42,382 bases of DNA from Flavobacteriales bacterium (lineage in GTDB: Bacteria; Bacteroidota; Bacteroidia; Flavobacteriales_G; JALEGO01), in assembly GCA_020631045.1 (NCBI GenBank), contig JAHDHZ010000011.1, forward strand, positions 13,473 to 55,854, given 5' to 3'. The notes under the pieces are model-generated. The model was not told the origin of the DNA and did no database searches. It saw nothing but the letters and a program-made list of their open reading frames with translations. The position numbers and the translations under genes were made by a program. Below are positions 2,912 to 19,040 of this stretch, in pieces. Within the stretch, counting starts at the first letter, position 1. Every line of letters begins with the position of its first letter.

Positions 2912-2972
2912 GAAAATGCCTTTTGGAGTGCTGACAAACCTTTGGTTTGAATGCACCCCAAAAGGTATTTTC
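2912..2972 (-). repeat. Hairpin repeat copy 1 (conserved-tip family, minus orientation)
   Basis: Arms 2912-2931 and 2953-2972 are complementary at 18 of 20 positions, one of the two exceptions being a G-T pair. The 21-base loop, read on the minus strand, is ATTCAAACC-AAA-GGTTTGTCA. It folds again into a short tip (CAAACC/GGTTTG) and is flanked by GTGC and GCAC. The same tip recurs at 3034-3054, 6595-6616 and 8623-8643. The copy begins 19 bases after the transporter stop and could end its transcript, but no T-run follows. Confidence 0.8.
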
Positions 2973-3006
2973 TACGCTCTTTCAAAACACCAAATATGTA
3001 TTTAAT

Positions 3007-3081
3007 AGGCTTTGGGAGGTTTCTTTTGTGTGCCTTCAAAGCTTGTCTTTGTCAGCACACAAAAGAAACCTCCCAAAACCT
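3007..3081 (+). repeat. Hairpin repeat copy 2 (conserved-tip family, plus orientation)
   Basis: Arms 3007-3033 and 3055-3081 pair at 26 of 27 positions; the exception is a C/T difference. The loop 3034-3054 is CTTCAAAG-CTTGT-CTTTGTCA between GTGC and GCAC. Compared with copy 4, the apical C-G pair is replaced by G-C, a compensatory change that supports a folded structure. This copy faces copy 1 in opposite orientation, and together they fill most of the 239-base gap before the surface-protein gene. Confidence 0.82.
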
Positions 3082-3101
3082 GTAGTTAGATATTAACAAG
3101 G

Positions 3102-3115
3102 TTTTTTTTTTTTTT
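3102..3115 (+). promoter_or_regulatory. T14 homopolymer tract upstream of surface protein gene
   Basis: Fourteen consecutive T residues lie 17 bases before the ATG of the T9SS protein. Such tracts can be the tail of a terminator (hairpin copy 2 ends 20 bases earlier) or a slippage-prone site that alters transcription or leader length. No TAnnTTTG box was found between the tract and the start codon. Function is not established. Confidence 0.4.
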
Positions 3116-3132
3116 GGAAAATCACTAAATTC

Positions 3133-6100
3133 ATGATTTTTATGCAATTTTTGCTTCGAAAACATAGCGTATTTTTAGGTTTTTTGACCTTTTTGAGTGC
3201 TTCTGTCAATGCCCAAAATCCGGGAGGTGTACCCTCTGCAAATATGAATTTATGGATTACGGCCGACTCTTTAGTTTTTAGTGGTGGATCAGCTGCGAAT
3301 GATGCAGATGCCGTAGATGGGTGGAATGACCTTTCAGGTAACAGGGTCAATGATTTTGCAGATTCTAACATGGCGCCACCTACCTATCGAAGCAATGCCC
3401 AAGACAACATCAATTATCACCCCATTGTAGAGTTTGATGGCATAAATGATGGAATGAATTTGGGCGATGATTATATTTTCACGCCAGCTGCAAAACTTGG
3501 GCAAACTTGGTTTTCGGTAGTAAAATCTGATGATCATGCTAATGCAAAAACCTTACAGCCGATTTTTGACTTTGGTTACCTACAGACAAGAGGCTATGGA
3601 TTGATAAAAACTAAAAATAGATCTTTGATATATACGCCAGCTGTTTTAGGAGGAAAGCCACTTGAAATGACATTTACATCAGATACATTACCAGAGCTTA
3701 ACCGATCTATTATTGACTTCGGTGATTCTCTAGCAATGTTTAAAAATGGAGATGAACTCTCAAATTCAACAAATCAAACATTGGTCGCACTCACAGCTAG
3801 TCAAATTGATGAATTACCTGTGCCAGATTTAACTGATGGGCCTTTTACTATAGGTAGAATTTCAAAAACAGGCCTAATCAATAATAACCTCGGTCGATAC
3901 CTTCAAGGTAAATTCTGTGAACTCATTGGTTTTGATACCTTACTTACCGACACCCAAATTCAAAAAATCGAAACGTATTTGACCTTGAAATACAGCCTTA
4001 AATACACAAAAAATTATCTGGCAAGTGACTCTACAATTATGTACAATACTTCAACCTTTAACGAATTCACCATAGGCATTGCAAGAGATGATTCTAGCAA
4101 TATTTTTCAAAAGCAATCGCGTGATTTTTACGATACTACGCGCATTTATTTGGGTACACTTGCATCAGATAACGCTTCAAATACCTCTACAAAAGCTGAT
4201 TTTACAGGTGATATTCGTTATTTAGTGATGGGTTCAGACGGTAAGATTATGGCTTCAAGTACAGCTGCCAAAAATGAAAAACCAAGTGGCATTTACTCAA
4301 GAATTGCTCGAGAATTTAAACTTAAAAATACCCGTTTTACTGGGACTTTTAACCTTGATTTTAGGTTAAATAAATGTGCTGATACTAGTAGAGTAGATAA
4401 AGATCATTTAAGGCTTTTGGTAGATACTGATGATGATTTCTCTGATGCTACTATTTATAGTAGTGCTGATGGGCTTACCTTTAGTTATGCAGATGGCGTA
4501 ATTTCAATTCAGGGCATTGCCAACAGTATTATTGGTAAAGATTCTTTGCGCTACCTTACCATAGGTTCTACAGATTATGATACGCCCCTTAGATTCAATA
4601 GCTACCCGATGAACATCGGTAAAAATATGAATTTTTGGATCCACTCTCAAAATGGGTCCACCACCGCCTCAAGCGCCTCTACAGATGGTGATGCTGTAAA
4701 TGGGTGGAACGATCTTTCTTGCCATAGAAAAAACAATTTGGCAGATTCTAATATGGCACCCCCTACATTTAGAGATAATGTTGCAAAAAACATCAACTAT
4801 CATCCTGCTATTGAGTTTGATGGAATAAATGATGGATTAAATTTGGGGGATGATTATGTATTTACTGAGGCTGCAAAACTGGGGCAAAATTGGTTTTGTG
4901 TGTTTTGGCCAGATTCAAATGCAAGTAATCGAACTGCTCAGTTAATGCTTGATTTTGGTAGACCCCAATCACATGGGTATGGCATTTTTGCACATCAAAA
5001 CTACATATCAATGTATTCCCCTGAAAGTTTTGGGGGCGCAACAACATTCTCAGATTCTGGTCTTCATTACAGAGGTAGTATTCCTATGCTTTCTAATTCT
5101 GGCATCGATTTTCAAGATTCTATATTTGTGAAATTAGAAGGTACATTATTTGCTCAAAATAACATCACCCTAACTAAACTAACAACAAACGAAATTTGGG
5201 AAAACCCAATAAATTTTGGTTCAAGTGGGCCATTCACAATAGGCCGTCAATCAGTCGAGACGGCAGTAAATAACAATAATGGCAGGCGTTATCAAGGACG
5301 CATTTCAGAAATCATCGGCTTCGATACTTTACTCTCCTCCACAGAAACCCAAAAAATAGAAACCTATCTTGCTATTAAATATGGCATTGCCCTTCAGAAA
5401 AACTACATTTCTAGCTCAGGCACAACTATTTATGATACCGCACAGGGCTACAGGCATTATACCATAGGTATTGGTAGGGATGATAATTCTACAAATATTG
5501 ATAAAGTCGAAAAAGGCGCTATTTTTCAAAAACAATCACATGATTACCTTGACTCTGTGCGTATTTACATGAATGCTCTTGCTACAGATAATATGTCAAA
5601 TACGGCCACAAGAGCTGATTTTGCAGGTAATGAACGCTATGTAGTCATGGGCTCTGATGGTAAAGCCATGTGCATGAAACCCTCTGTTGTTACAGATTTC
5701 CCGACTGCTACAATTTACTCAAGATTGGCAAGAGAATTTAAAGTCACTAATACTGATTTTTCAGCAGATTTTAACATTGATTTTAGGCTCAATGAATGTG
5801 CCGATACGGCCAACGTGACCACCTCACATTTAAGATTGCTCATAGATACAGACTCTAATTTAACAGATGCAACTGTTTATGGCACAGCTGATGGTTTAAG
5901 CTTTGCTTACAACGATGGCATTGTAAGTGTTTCAAATGTCTCTACTACGCTAATCCCTACGAATTCTACTCGATTTTTAACGCTCGCCTCTACTGATGAA
6001 CTTACCCCTTTGCCTATCGAATTGCTTTCTTTTGCGGGTTATACATCTGACAACACCCATGTGTTAGAATGGCAAACGGCAAGTGAGCAAGATAATTGCT

Positions 6101-6558
6101 GTTTTGAATTGCAAAGAAGTGCTGATGCTCAAACTTGGACAACCCTAGCTACCATTGATGGAGCCATCAACAGCAATGTAGTTACAAACTATAGTTATAT
6201 AGATTCCACAGTATTAAATGGCTCAAACTACTATCGGTTAAAGCAAATAGATTTTAATGGAAGCTTTTCATTTTCTGATAACATAGTGCATTTGTTACAC
6301 CAACAAGAAATAGACTTTAGTTTACATCCTAACCCAGCTTCAGATTTTTTAACCATAGAACTCTCTACACCTTATCAAAATATATCATATGAGATTTACA
6401 ACAGCGCAGGGCAACTTGTGAAAAAAAATCACTTAAATCCACTTAATGGGTTAACATTACAAATCTCTATTCAAGAGCTCGCCAAAGGAGATTATTTCAT
6501 CAAACTCACAAATGGAGCACTACAAGGTACTAAAGAGTTTGCGATACTTAAGTTTTAG
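3133..6558 (+). CDS. Secreted T9SS type A protein with duplicated LamG-like module
   Basis: An 1141-residue exported protein. Residues 1-27 form a signal peptide ending SASVNA before QNP. Two copies of one module follow, beginning at residues 38 and 499 (offset 461); each opens with a MN[LF]WI stretch and contains DGINDG[ML]NLGDDY, AAKLGQ.WF and a later YLV/YVVMGSDGK. The style, a lectin/LamG-like fold with a Bacteroidota-specific companion domain, is common in marine surface proteins, but I cannot assign a ligand. Residues 957-1141 begin PLPIELLSF and end in a type A sorting domain (HPNPASDFLTIEL, then NSAGQLVKK and YFIKL), which directs export through the T9SS and usually removal of the tail. 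ATG 3133 is used; ATG 3142 would also keep the signal peptide. The gene converges on the ABC-F gene. Confidence 0.85.
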   Translation: MIFMQFLLRKHSVFLGFLTFLSASVNAQNPGGVPSANMNLWITADSLVFSGGSAANDADAVDGWNDLSGNRVNDFADSNMAPPTYRSNAQDNINYHPIVEFDGINDGMNLGDDYIFTPAAKLGQTWFSVVKSDDHANAKTLQPIFDFGYLQTRGYGLIKTKNRSLIYTPAVLGGKPLEMTFTSDTLPELNRSIIDFGDSLAMFKNGDELSNSTNQTLVALTASQIDELPVPDLTDGPFTIGRISKTGLINNNLGRYLQGKFCELIGFDTLLTDTQIQKIETYLTLKYSLKYTKNYLASDSTIMYNTSTFNEFTIGIARDDSSNIFQKQSRDFYDTTRIYLGTLASDNASNTSTKADFTGDIRYLVMGSDGKIMASSTAAKNEKPSGIYSRIAREFKLKNTRFTGTFNLDFRLNKCADTSRVDKDHLRLLVDTDDDFSDATIYSSADGLTFSYADGVISIQGIANSIIGKDSLRYLTIGSTDYDTPLRFNSYPMNIGKNMNFWIHSQNGSTTASSASTDGDAVNGWNDLSCHRKNNLADSNMAPPTFRDNVAKNINYHPAIEFDGINDGLNLGDDYVFTEAAKLGQNWFCVFWPDSNASNRTAQLMLDFGRPQSHGYGIFAHQNYISMYSPESFGGATTFSDSGLHYRGSIPMLSNSGIDFQDSIFVKLEGTLFAQNNITLTKLTTNEIWENPINFGSSGPFTIGRQSVETAVNNNNGRRYQGRISEIIGFDTLLSSTETQKIETYLAIKYGIALQKNYISSSGTTIYDTAQGYRHYTIGIGRDDNSTNIDKVEKGAIFQKQSHDYLDSVRIYMNALATDNMSNTATRADFAGNERYVVMGSDGKAMCMKPSVVTDFPTATIYSRLAREFKVTNTDFSADFNIDFRLNECADTANVTTSHLRLLIDTDSNLTDATVYGTADGLSFAYNDGIVSVSNVSTTLIPTNSTRFLTLASTDELTPLPIELLSFAGYTSDNTHVLEWQTASEQDNCCFELQRSADAQTWTTLATIDGAINSNVVTNYSYIDSTVLNGSNYYRLKQIDFNGSFSFSDNIVHLLHQQEIDFSLHPNPASDFLTIELSTPYQNISYEIYNSAGQLVKKNHLNPLNGLTLQISIQELAKGDYFIKLTNGALQGTKEFAILKF

Positions 6559-6560
6559 GA

Positions 6561-6650
6561 TTTCAAATTTTTTTTCCAAACCTTTTTTTAGGGGGACTCA
6601 AACTTTAGTTTGACAGCCCCTAAAAAAAGGTTTGGAAAAGAAATTTGAAA
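6561..6650 (+). repeat. Hairpin repeat copy 3, between convergent genes
   Basis: Left arm 6561-6594 and right arm 6617-6650 pair at 33 of 34 positions, the longest stem of the family. The loop 6595-6616 contains ACTCAAACTTTAGTTTGACA, whose tip TCAAACT/AGTTTGA pairs again. It fills the whole 96-base gap between the surface-protein stop (6558) and the ABC-F stop (6655). That is the place for a bidirectional terminator, although neither strand has a long T-run beyond the stem. Confidence 0.82.
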
Positions 6651-6654
6651 TAAC

Positions 6655-8496
6655 TCATTCAGAAAGACTCAGCCACTGATCTTCAAGATTACTGATTTCA
6701 GCTTTGAGCTTTTCAACCAAATCAGCTTTTTCTTGAATCTCTTCTAATGATTGATTGGGGGCGAGTAGCGCTGTTTCGAGCTCGGTTTTTTGCCCTTCAA
6801 GTTTTTCGAGTTTTTTCTCGATACTGCGCAACTCTTTTCTTTGTTGGTGGCTAATCTTTGCTTTTGAAGGCGCAGTTATACTTTGAGGCTTCTCTATTTT
6901 TGTATTTTGAGCTTCTTGTTTTGCTTGATTGCTGTAATCTGTATAGTTGCCGATAAAATCTTTGATTTCTCCCGCGCCTTTGAACACAAATAAATGATCG
7001 ACGAGTTTATCCATGAAGTAGCGATCATGTGAGACGATCATTACACAGCCCTTGAATGAAAGCAGGTAATCTTCTAAGACATTTAAGGTAGCAATGTCTA
7101 AATCATTGGTAGGCTCATCTAAAATTAAGAAGTTGGGGTTTTGAATTAAAAGACTTAATAGATACAGGCGTTTGCGCTCACCTCCACTCAAAGTAGAGAT
7201 GTATTGTTGCTGCTGTGCTCTTGAGAATAAAAAAGTTTCTAGGAGTTGTTCTGCCATAAGTTTTTTGCCTTTTTCTAAAGGAATGTACTCGGCAATGTCT
7301 CGAATGAATTCAATGACGCGTTTATCAACTTTAAAGGTGAGTCCTTCTTGTTTGTAATGCCCAATGTTTAAGGTCTCGCCTAAAATCACTTTGCCCTTAT
7401 CGGGCTCAAGTTGTTTGGTGATGAGTTTTAAAAAGGTGCTTTTACCTGCTCCGTTGGGCCCTACAATGCCAATGCGGTCACCTTTTTGAAATTTATATTC
7501 AAAACCACTTACGATGGCTTTTTCATCAAAAGCTTTATTCAGATTGATTACCTCAATGATTTTGGCGCCCAAACGAGAAGATTTAAGATCAATGTTGAGC
7601 TTTTTTTCTTGGGTATAACTGTGCAGTGCCTTTTTGGTGGATGCAAAGCGATCAACCCGATCTTTAGATTTGGTGCCTCTGGCTTTGGGTTGGCGTCTGA
7701 CCCATTCTAATTCTTTTTTATAAAGTCCTTTGAGTTTTTGGTGTGCGGCGGCTTGGTTGAGCTTGGCGGCTTGTTTTTTTTCAAGGTAGTCAGCGTAATT
7801 GCCTGAGTATTTTTGCAAGGCGCCGTTTTCAAGCTCAATAATTTGATTGCAAACTGCATTGATGAAATATCTATCATGGGTCACTACAAAGAGTGTTTTG
7901 TTGGGGCTTTTAAAATAGTGCTCGAGCCACTCAATCATTTCAACATCTAAATGGTTGGTAGGCTCATCAAAAATTAAAAAGTCAGGGTTTTCAATTAAGA
8001 TTTTAGTGAGTGCAACTCGCTTGCGCTCTCCACCTGAAAGCACGCCTATTTTTTGATTTAAGTCTTCAATGTTGAGTTTTGAAAGAATCTCTTTGATTTG
8101 TGCTTCGATGCTCCAAGCGCCCAACTCATCGATTTGTGCCATACTTTGCTCAATCAATGCTTGGTTGTTTTCTTTAAGCGCTTGATTGTAGGTTTTAATG
8201 GCTTTGATGGATTTGTACTCTGAGCTGAAAAGTTCTTCAAGAATACTTTTCTGATCGTCTAACACAGGTTCTTGGGGTAAAAAACCTACTTGCAAGTTTT
8301 TTGCAAATTCAGTTTTGGCCTGCTCGCCCTCTGGTGACTCAAGACCGCTGATGACTTTTAATAGAGTGGTTTTACCTGCTCCATTTTTAGCAAGTAGAGC
8401 TGTTTTATCTCCTTTATTGATGGTCAGATCAATACCATCAAACAAGATTTTATCGCCATAGGTTTTAGTGATGTTTTCTAATTTGAGGTACTGCAT
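6655..8496 (-). CDS. ABC-F family ATPase (Uup-like)
   Basis: A cytosolic 613-residue protein with two ABC ATPase domains and no membrane segments, the ABC-F architecture; members act on ribosomes (translation factors, antibiotic protection) or, for Uup, in genome stability and ribosome quality control. Domain 1 has a Walker A AKNGAGKTT (the usual first Gly is Ala), a signature LSGGERKR and Walker B FLIFDEPTNHLD. Domain 2 has GPNGAGKST, LSGGERKR and FLILDEPTNDLD. A charged linker rich in Lys and Arg lies between them. The C-terminus (about residues 535-613) is a coiled coil with Glu/Lys/Leu repeats, as in Uup. Both sites look catalytically complete. The start ATG at 8496 gives a standard N-terminus, YLKLENITKTYGDK. 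The exact role (Uup versus resistance factor) is not resolved. Confidence 0.9.
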   Translation of the reverse strand: MQYLKLENITKTYGDKILFDGIDLTINKGDKTALLAKNGAGKTTLLKVISGLESPEGEQAKTEFAKNLQVGFLPQEPVLDDQKSILEELFSSEYKSIKAIKTYNQALKENNQALIEQSMAQIDELGAWSIEAQIKEILSKLNIEDLNQKIGVLSGGERKRVALTKILIENPDFLIFDEPTNHLDVEMIEWLEHYFKSPNKTLFVVTHDRYFINAVCNQIIELENGALQKYSGNYADYLEKKQAAKLNQAAAHQKLKGLYKKELEWVRRQPKARGTKSKDRVDRFASTKKALHSYTQEKKLNIDLKSSRLGAKIIEVINLNKAFDEKAIVSGFEYKFQKGDRIGIVGPNGAGKSTFLKLITKQLEPDKGKVILGETLNIGHYKQEGLTFKVDKRVIEFIRDIAEYIPLEKGKKLMAEQLLETFLFSRAQQQQYISTLSGGERKRLYLLSLLIQNPNFLILDEPTNDLDIATLNVLEDYLLSFKGCVMIVSHDRYFMDKLVDHLFVFKGAGEIKDFIGNYTDYSNQAKQEAQNTKIEKPQSITAPSKAKISHQQRKELRSIEKKLEKLEGQKTELETALLAPNQSLEEIQEKADLVEKLKAEISNLEDQWLSLSE

Positions 8497-8602
8497 ATAA
8501 GATAAAGGTAGTGATTTAAACAGTTTTTAAGTGGGGGTGGATGTTTGCCCCGGATAGTAGAGAGTAGCTTGTGGTGCAGGAAAAAAGTGATTGGAGGTGG
8601 GA

Positions 8603-8663
8603 GAAAAAATCTTTTTGAGTGCCTTCAAACCTTGTGTTTGACAGCACTCAAAAAGACTTTTTC
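8603..8663 (+). repeat. Hairpin repeat copy 4 (conserved-tip family)
   Basis: Arms 8603-8622 and 8644-8663 pair at 19 of 20 positions; weaker pairing continues outward to GATTGG on the left and CCAATC on the right. The 21-base loop CTTCAAACCTTGTGTTTGACA sits between GTGC and GCAC, and its tip TCAAAC/GTTTGA pairs. It lies between divergent genes, about 106 bases upstream of the ABC-F start and about 190 bases before the rpsL promoter, so it ends neither gene. Confidence 0.8.
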
Positions 8664-13914: not shown

Positions 13915-14742
13915 ATGGCTGTTAAAAAATTAAAACCAACCACTCCAGGGCAACGTCATAAAATCGTTAGCTCTTTTGAAGAAATTACTGCTTCTAAGCC
14001 AGAAAAAAGCTTAGTAAGAGGTAAAAAAGCTTCAGGTGGACGTAACAATAAAGGAAAGATGACTATGCGTTATTTAGGCGGTGGTCACAAGAGAAGATAT
14101 AGAACAATTGACTTTAAAAGAGATAAGTTCGGAGTTCCTGCAACGGTAAAGTCAATTGAGTACGATCCAAACAGAAATGCAAGAATTGCACTTTTATATT
14201 ATGCTGATGGAGAGAAGCGATACATTATTGCTCCAAATGGCTTAAAAGTCGGTACTACGCTTAATTCAGGAAAAGGAATTGCACCTGAAGTAGGTAATAC
14301 ATTGTATTTATCTGATATTCCTTTGGGTACTGTGATTCATAACATTGAATTAAGACCGGGTCAAGGTGCTAAGATGGCAAGAAGTGCTGGATCTTACGTT
14401 CAATTACAAGCAAGAGAAGGTAAGTACGCTACCATCAAATTGCCTTCAGGTGAAACTAGAATGGTACTAACAACTTGTTTAGCAACTATCGGAACAGTAG
14501 GTAATTCTGATCACAACTTAGAGCGTTCTGGTAAAGCTGGTCGTTCGAGATGGTTGGGTAGAAGACCAAGAACAAGACCAGTAGCAATGAACCCAGTAGA
14601 TCACCCGATGGGTGGTGGTGAAGGTAGAGCTTCAGGAGGTCATCCAAGAAATAGAAATGGTGTTCCTGCTAAGGGATACAAGACTAGAGCTAAGAAAAAG
14701 CCGTCTAATAAGTTTATTGTTGAAAGAAGAAAGAAAAAGTAA
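13915..14742 (+). CDS. rplB: 50S ribosomal protein L2
   Basis: Conserved 23S rRNA-binding protein required for subunit association and peptidyl transferase assembly. Length 275 is normal. The RNA-binding core has [18 protein letters not shown], an OB-fold region with [15 protein letters not shown], and the conserved C-terminal loop [20 protein letters not shown] that holds the histidine long tied to peptidyl transferase function. The basic tail ends [12 protein letters not shown]. It follows rplW closely, and rpsS begins 6 bases after its stop. Confidence 0.98.
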
Positions 14743-14748
14743 TCTAAC

Positions 14749-15009
14749 ATGAGTAGATCATTAAAAAAACCACCATTTGTGCATTACAAATTGAACCAAA
14801 GAGTTCTCAAAGCACAAGAAAGTCAGAAAAAAGATGTTATCAAGACTTGGTCTAGAGCATCTATGATTACCCCTGATTTTGTAGGATTGACAATTGCAGT
14901 TCATAACGGAAAACAATTCATTCCAGTTTATGTTACTGAAAATATGGTAGGTCATAAATTAGGTGAATTTTCACCGACAAGAACATTTAGAGGACACGGT
15001 AAAAAATAA
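14749..15009 (+). CDS. rpsS: 30S ribosomal protein S19
   Basis: Small-subunit head protein that, with S13, contacts the A-site region and the bridge to the large subunit. The 86-residue length is within the family range. It starts [15 protein letters not shown] and carries the signature segment [20 protein letters not shown], ending RGHGKK. It lies 6 bases after rplB and 21 bases before rplV. No unusual feature was seen. Confidence 0.97.
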
Positions 15010-15030
15010 TACTTGAATAAGTAAAGTACT

Positions 15031-15429
15031 ATGGGAAAGAGAAAAGCACAAACGGCAAACAACATTAAGGAAGCAAAAAAAACTCAATATTTTGCAAAAC
15101 TTAACAATTGCCCTACATCGCCCCGAAAAATGCGATTGGTAGCTGACCTTGTAAGAGGTATGAGCGTAGAAAAAGCTGCTGGAGTTTTACAATACTCTAA
15201 AAAGCATGCTGCTGGTAGAATTGAAAAATTATTGTGGTCAGCAATTCACAATTTTGAAGCTAAAAGTGGTGAGCGTTGGGATAATTCAAATCTCTACATT
15301 AAAGAAATATTTGTAAATCAATCAAGAACTTTAAAGCGTATGCAACCTGCTCCTCAGGGTAGAGCATATAGAATTAGAAAACGTTCTAATCATGTTACAC
15401 TCGTTTTAGATAAACAAAATACTAAGTAA
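15031..15429 (+). CDS. rplV: 50S ribosomal protein L22
   Basis: Tunnel-wall protein whose beta hairpin lies near the macrolide site. At 132 residues it is somewhat longer than the ~110 of E. coli because of an N-terminal extension (MGKRKAQTANNIKEAKKTQYF) seen in related Bacteroidota. Core segments are CPTSPRKMRLVADLVRGM, a hairpin around RTLKRMQPAPQGRAYRIRKR, and the end HVTLVLDKQ. The hairpin has its normal length, with no deletion of the kind that causes macrolide resistance. rpsC starts 3 bases after the stop. Confidence 0.97.
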   Translation: MGKRKAQTANNIKEAKKTQYFAKLNNCPTSPRKMRLVADLVRGMSVEKAAGVLQYSKKHAAGRIEKLLWSAIHNFEAKSGERWDNSNLYIKEIFVNQSRTLKRMQPAPQGRAYRIRKRSNHVTLVLDKQNTK

Positions 15430-18364: not shown

Positions 18365-18634
18365 ATGGCTAAAGAATCAATGAAAGCAAGAGAGCGAAAA
18401 AGACAGCGTATGGTTGAAAAATATGCTGAAAAAAGAGCTCGATTAAAAGCAGAAGGAGATTGGGAAGGTCTTCAAAAACTTCCTAAAAATTCTTCAAAAG
18501 TAAGATTGCATAACAGATGCTTGATTACGGGTCGTCCTAAAGGATACATGAGACAATTTGGTATTTCAAGGGTGACATTCAGAGAAATGGCAAACCAAGG
18601 TTTAATCCCAGGAGTAAAGAAAGCTAGCTGGTAA
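18365..18634 (+). CDS. rpsN: 30S ribosomal protein S14, zinc-free long form
   Basis: Small-subunit head protein. At 89 residues it is the long form. It lacks the CxxC pairs of the short zinc-binding S14; a single Cys remains in [20 protein letters not shown], which is the conserved signature. The start [20 protein letters not shown] and the end [13 protein letters not shown] are typical of Bacteroidota. It lies 2 bases after rplE and 10 before rpsH. The zinc-free form should work under zinc limitation without a substitute paralogue. Confidence 0.97.
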
Positions 18635-18644
18635 AAGAAAAATT

Positions 18645-19040
18645 ATGACAGATACGATCGCAGATTACCTTACAAGAGTTAGAAACGCAATTATGGCGGG
18701 TCACAAAGTAGTAGAGATTCCTGCTTCTAACTTAAAGAAAGATATTACTAAAGTGTTACATGACAAGGGTTATATCTTAAATTATAAGTTTGAAGATACT
18801 ACTGCTCAAGGATCAATTAAAATTGCTTTGAAATATCATCCTATTACAAAAGTTCCTGCAATTAGAAAGCTTGAGAGAGTGAGTAAGCCTGGTTTGAGAA
18901 AATATTCTGCAGCATCTAATGCTCCTAGAGTGTTGAATGGTTTAGGTGTTGCGATTTTATCGACTTCTAAGGGAGTAATGACTGATAAAGAAGCAAGAAC
19001 TCAGAATGTAGGTGGAGAAGTATTGTGTTACGTTTATTAA
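18645..19040 (+). CDS. rpsH: 30S ribosomal protein S8
   Basis: Central-domain assembly protein that binds helix 21 of 16S rRNA; in E. coli it also represses the spc operon. Length 131 is normal. Segments include [32 protein letters not shown], and the C-terminal hallmark [20 protein letters not shown] followed by [11 protein letters not shown]. It follows rpsN and precedes rplF by 12 bases. Whether autogenous repression works here cannot be judged; no obvious helix-21 mimic was recognised nearby. Confidence 0.98.

Follow-up and report, generated by a model that had tools for sequence, protein, structure and literature searches.

The window, by which we mean the whole stretch of 42,382 nucleotides analysed here, carries four long hairpins in the gaps between its genes. 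The first follows an MFS gene (1712-2893), and the second lies close by in the opposite orientation. The third makes up the entire gap between two convergent genes, 3133-6558 on the plus strand and 6655-8496 on the minus strand, and ends 1 and 3 nt away from their stop codons. The fourth is flanked by divergent genes, one for an ABC-F protein (start 8496) and one for ribosomal protein S12 (start 8923). From 8923 to 29653 the window resembles the main ribosomal-protein gene cluster, with S12, EF-G, L3, L4 and L2 recognised by Pfam. The four hairpins, members of a family that we call F1, are laid out as follows.

2912..2972, minus strand: F1 copy 1, with 18 Watson-Crick pairs outside the tip loop, one G.T and one mismatch
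2928..2956, minus strand: constant tip of copy 1, sequence GTGCATTCAAACCAAAGGTTTGTCAGCAC
3007..3081, plus strand: F1 copy 2, with 26 pairs and one mismatch, oriented opposite to copy 1
3030..3058, plus strand: constant tip of copy 2, inner top pair G-C, not C-G
6560..6651, plus strand: F1 copy 3, with 34 pairs
6593..6620, plus strand: tip of copy 3, the variant GGGG-ACTCAAACTTTAGTTTGACA-GCCC
8603..8663, plus strand: F1 copy 4, a member of a nine-copy subfamily with inherited arms
8619..8647, plus strand: constant tip of copy 4

All four lie where the original prediction, made from the letters of the window, had placed them, and they fold as it described, with copy 1 reading on the minus strand. 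The constant part of F1 is a tip of 29 bases, TTTT-NN-GTGC-[AC][TC]TCAAA-loop-TTTG-[AT]CA-GCAC-NN-AAAA. Read in the tip sense, a unique 5' arm is followed by TTTT, one to three freely covarying pairs, GTGC, [AC][TC]T, and CAAA with one covarying pair; then, past a loop of four to five bases (TTTA, TTCA, CTTGT or CTTTG), come TTTG, [AT]CA, GCAC, the complements and a unique 3' arm. The inner tip retains a 3x3 internal loop, and since this loop is both asymmetric and conserved, the tip has polarity. The constant part had been described as the loop, mostly closed by GTGC/GCAC, above CTTTT-rich sequence; it also takes in a TTT that lies 1-3 nt beyond GTGC. Of 53 copies, 51 have this triplet within 7 nt of GTGC, whereas only 10 of 43 have it at a control position shifted outward by 20 nt. 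The inner tip stem covaries. Across the aligned copies 156 cells are double-changed, where shuffles give 49.5 +/- 6.1, and paired cells make up 90%, where slid controls reach 35-54%; for double-changed cells, score and percentage paired alike, the observed value lies above 500 of 500 shuffles and above every slid control. The compensatory C-G to G-C change noticed in the window's own copies recurs across the family, in which the top pair of the tip is CG in 19 copies, GC in 10 and AU in one. Tips that fit the tight pattern and lack long arms were not found.

How large is the family, and how far does it extend? The genome to which the window belongs, which its gene content places in Bacteroidota, is a 2.34 Mb draft in 86 contigs, 98.6% complete. 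Base-by-base reading covered 1.41 Mb of it and 0.66 Mb of a genome of the same genus, and the whole-genome counts come from pattern and model searches across all contigs. The tip pattern TCAAA-n5-9-TTTGnCAGC matches 34 times in the whole genome, the reversed control not once, and long-armed hairpins stand at 32 of the 34 matches. A covariance model built from these 32 returns 59 rows for the genome; once eight second-strand duplicates are removed, 51 distinct places remain, so that the predicted tens of intergenic copies with complementary stems were indeed found, and a hairpin census of the 1.41 Mb adds three weak copies, for a total of about 54. Copies cluster: contig C36 has four within 354 bp, C29 has three within about 320 bp, and the 39-kb contig C45 has nine. 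Several of the hairpins are found where contigs end (C54, C40, C31, C26 and C84); the assembly breaks at them, and the genome probably has more copies than were counted.

The same model gives no match among 59 relatives, the same-genus genome included. F1 is thus confined to one genome among those searched, and the Bacteroidota-specific class that had been suggested is not supported. Stems scoring at least 20 number 40 in the 1.41 Mb of this genome and one in the 0.66 Mb of its congener. The strict tip pattern has four matches in the named genomes of GTDB r220 and two in the viral contigs of IMG/VR, none of them a long variable-stem hairpin, and we take these six to be chance. When seven loci were compared with Rfam 15, none reached a gathering score, and the sub-threshold matches were mostly to models of miRNA hairpins. 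Searches of the openly available literature turned up no family in which a constant tip is described on variable or locally derived stems, which does not by itself prove F1 to be new.

The stems of F1 outside the loop consist mostly of 18-40 Watson-Crick pairs, and in 11 copies the arms are perfect over at least 20 bp. The arm sequences, however, are not shared as the tip is. Identical tips of 20-21 nt stand on unrelated arms, with an arm identity of 0.06-0.44 in most such pairs, and the mean over all pairs of copies is 0.33; the combination of variable stems and a constant tip noticed in the window describes a family of about 54 members. Within the 1.41 Mb the arms have no matches elsewhere, other than related copies and short weak matches. 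Being unshared under identical tips and unmatched elsewhere in that sequence, the arms neither come along with the tip nor serve as guides to other sites in it, and the idea of guide-like or spacer-like arms was rejected. In the tip sense, the stems of the unique-arm copies contain 1221 Watson-Crick pairs, 12 G.T, 21 A.C, 19 other mismatches and 23 gaps. G.U is not in excess in these stems, the mRNA sense giving 7 G.U against 8 A.C. A stem selected for its fold as RNA would be free to keep G.U pairs; the unique-arm stems show no surplus of them, and so look DNA-templated.

Where might such arms come from? At nine gene ends the distance to the hairpin is negative, the arm overlapping the last codons. 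One arm of the hairpin at C27:35484-35569 consists of the last codons, FNREWM-stop, of a methylase of the SpoU family. The relatives of this methylase align as far as the F of this string, and the facing arm nearly repeats it, as NKEWM-stop, where the convergent neighbour ends. A 40-bp perfect palindrome at C37:4130-4229, which has a different loop and no F1 tip, covers the FIK-stop of a Pif1-like helicase; relatives of the helicase align to residue 96 of 97, and its HTH_40 domain, like these relatives, extends to the last residues. In several copies an arm is thus made of the last codons of an adjacent gene, and its partner looks like an inverted copy; from these alignments the coding sequence is likely the original at both loci and the opposite arm the inverted copy. 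The genes at C27:35565 and C27:37881 have their C-terminal codons inside an F1 arm, and the convergent 151-aa ORF, ending QLCI-stop, may owe its present end to the copied arm. The C-terminus of a phosphoribosyltransferase at C27:37826, compared with its relatives, may be either native or a contribution of the arm. A convergent pair on C56, the sole one compared in both genomes, is separated here by a gap of about 250 bp with a hairpin, and in the same-genus genome by tens of bases only, with no hairpin.

F1 has company. A second family, F2, has the same anatomy built on another tip, TTTTCGGCTC-CCGATCC-TAAA-GGATCGAAG-TTTCTC-AAAA, and its pattern form, CGGCTCCCGATCC-n3-4-GGATCGAAGTTTCTC, finds 13 copies in the same genome and none in the 59 relatives. 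The C45 copies of F2 share arms and adjoin F1, in a repeated composite unit some 190-240 bp long in which an F2 hairpin is mostly followed by an F1 hairpin. This composite occurs seven or eight times on the 39-kb contig, where it separates unrelated genes (the SUF operon, feoB, AdoHcyase). Two further long hairpins, which perhaps represent a third tip family, F3, with two copies, lie near RNA genes, each directly past a terminator-like hairpin with a T-run.

C19:7583-7693: F2 on unrelated arms
C19:12191-12282: F2 on unrelated arms
C58:14771: F2 on unrelated arms
C84:7903-7997: F2 on unrelated arms
C73:12601-12692: F2 on unrelated arms
C45: eight copies of F2
C82:68872: F2
C45, at 282-520, 540-630, 1472-1700, 4618-4968, 14101-14330, 14981-15210 and 18617-18846: composite repeat
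C16:80-146 and C46:33-99: F3 candidate, two long hairpins with tip AATTTGCTT[GA]A..GC / GC..[TC]AGACAAATT

What process would give one tip on so many private stems? The reading we prefer, at somewhat less than an even chance, is that the tip is mobile and that its insertion, or later template switching, copies the flanking sequence back into a long stem. The spreading unit would be the tip, a self-complementary head of about 29-45 bp that contains the 3x3 internal loop and is flanked by runs of T and A. It would land mostly in short gaps past stop codons, and there it would turn DNA synthesis back, through fold-back priming or a template switch, so that 20-40 nt of flank would be copied inverted. 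Since the flank would be copied at each site, every copy would gain a new, initially perfect stem of local sequence, which later template switching or selection would keep paired in part. A putative enzyme would recognise the folded single-stranded tip. What the data show directly is the constant tip, the Watson-Crick arms that are unrelated even under identical tips, the restriction to this genome among those searched and the arms that take in coding ends; we infer the mobility of the tip, the fold-back step, the direction of copying and the recognition of a single strand by an enzyme. Several findings speak against a mobile tip. A simple clock of birth followed by decay predicts that tips deviate as arms decay, and the two are not correlated (Spearman 0.07, p 0.66). 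Neither a Y1_Tnp nor an RVT_1 domain was found in the genome, the shared-arm subfamily covaries, and the C37 palindrome has no F1 tip. A bolder form of the proposal, which we think somewhat unlikely, is a new kind of mobile DNA in which only the hairpin tip is heritable and, once inserted, acts as a turn-around primer from which the host copies the flank into a custom stem each time, with the unrelated tips of F1, F2 and perhaps F3 behaving alike.

The nine-copy subfamily deserves separate comment. Its arms are homologous, being part of a larger repeat, and window copy 4 is included. Here 97% of cells pair, five pairs are double-changed in the compensatory manner, and at most three of 500 shuffles attain any of the observed measures. 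Because these arms covary, stems must also be kept paired after birth, whether by selection on the fold or by template-switch correction. It had been predicted that stems which change yet stay complementary reflect selection on structure. The compensatory changes of the subfamily bear this out in part; the unique arms, with no excess of G.U and with inverted coding copies among them, do not. Maintenance after birth also lends weight to another explanation, that F1 hairpins are old and are held perfect at the DNA level by concerted evolution (quasipalindrome correction), with a protein bound to the tip and any mobility past or minor. DNA-templated correction predicts that G.U is not in excess, and arm decay that is independent of tip deviation fits it as well. 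There is also a precedent in Nematomorpha mtDNA, whose long palindromes keep perfect arms and for which template switching is proposed (PMC6649704). Correction of this kind would, however, be expected to remove the 3x3 internal loop too, unless that loop is protected. Moreover, F1 is absent from the same-genus genome, and the gap at the single locus compared is far smaller there, both of which call for a recent gain, and arms made of coding ends demand a local origin. We consider concerted evolution of old hairpins unlikely as the main account.

Might the hairpins instead act as RNA? Stems at the 3' ends of genes could block exonucleases or end transcription, and selection would then keep both stem and tip. 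The positions of F1 are suggestive of such a function. A gene 3' end lies on at least one side of 45 of the 49 copies for which both neighbours are known, and convergent gaps are over-represented (15 of 49 copies, against 112 of 784 gaps, or 14%; p 0.002). Divergent gaps hold only four of the 49, window copy 4 among them. Most copies lie just past stops, the bases of their stems clustering 1-14 nt from the stop codons. Position is weak evidence by itself, however, since in a gene-dense genome most of the room that is left lies in 3' gaps. A run of at least four T follows 14 of 82 stem ends (17%), against a background of 14%, and where just one of the two flanking genes turns its 3' end to the copy, the orientation of the tip to that gene is mixed. 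With no T-tract, mixed orientation and no surplus of G.U in the mRNA sense, selection as an RNA or terminator is unsupported as the origin of the stems; none of the 59 relatives has an F1 hairpin, and no Rfam family is matched at threshold. The terminator class offered in the original prediction thus finds no support, and we judge a functional RNA or terminator to be distinctly unlikely.

The other suggestion made there was a REP-like repeat driven by a RAYT. F1 would then be a non-autonomous element of the REP/BIME kind, moved in trans by a Y1/HUH transposase that reads the folded tip and whose gene is missing from the draft. The ends recognised by TnpA_REP, and those of IS200/IS605, are read as folded strands with asymmetric mismatches, much as the F1 tip might be, and the pairs or clusters of opposite orientation on C36, C29 and C82, and copies 1 and 2 of the window, resemble BIMEs. 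Searches for the enzyme were negative: PF01797 (Y1_Tnp/RAYT) has no match in the 98.6% complete draft, an absence that is not proof, and one match in each of the relatives G002 and G004. The tags of such systems are rare as well, with GTAG at most 10 nt from the stem base, on either strand, in only seven of 50 copies and CGTC in one of 50. Published REP stems are of 5-13 bp (PMC3733652), whereas those of F1 are mostly 18-40 bp and unshared. A RAYT-driven REP is therefore quite improbable. An element made by a retron or other reverse transcriptase was also considered and rejected, as PF00078 (RVT_1) was not found in this genome assembly. Tyrosine recombinases (PF00589) have five matches, a number similar to that in relatives.

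It is highly improbable that the hairpins are artefacts of assembly or amplification such as fold-back chimeras, for although the draft has 86 contigs and some copies sit at contig ends, most are contig-internal, a same-genus draft has none, and random chimeras cannot give one tip with covarying inner pairs at about 54 unrelated loci.

Known dispersed palindromes spread together with their stems, whereas F1 copies mostly do not inherit theirs. If the tip does move and builds its stem locally, this would be an unusual mode of action for a mobile element and a source of de novo long palindromes beside genes. Bacterial chromosomes would then also carry, in such hairpins, a natural archive of template switching or fold-back synthesis.

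How does F1 compare with known systems? Intrinsic terminators place a hairpin directly past the stop codon, and F1 does likewise, but F1 has no T-tract, stems that are too long, a constant tip and a distribution limited to one genome among those searched. MITEs and foldback elements are small, non-autonomous inverted-repeat units, as F1 seems to be; their inverted repeats are shared and act as transposon ends, whereas the arms are the unshared part of F1 in most pairs and are shared only in the nine-copy subfamily. In integron attC sites the conserved RYYYAAC/GTTRRRY lies at the outer ends of the hairpin and the tip is variable, while in F1 it is the outer parts that vary and the tip that is constant. 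REP and BIME sequences are like F1 in being dispersed, species-restricted intergenic palindromes with mismatched stems that occur in pairs and clusters. They differ in their short, family-shared, GTAG/CGTC-tagged stems, those of F1 being long, unique to each copy and untagged, and in their Y1 transposase, for which no gene was found here. The repetitive hairpin-forming elements of sponge and fungal mtDNA are dispersed and intergenic as well, but with the parts reversed, since their stems are conserved and their loops vary (PMC2800124). The long perfect palindromes of Nematomorpha mtDNA, for which template switching has been proposed, include coding sequence, and F1 is like them in its perfect arms and its overlap with genes; they are mitochondrial, and in the portion of that report available to us they are described with neither a constant tip nor a mobile family, the two features that set F1 apart (PMC6649704).
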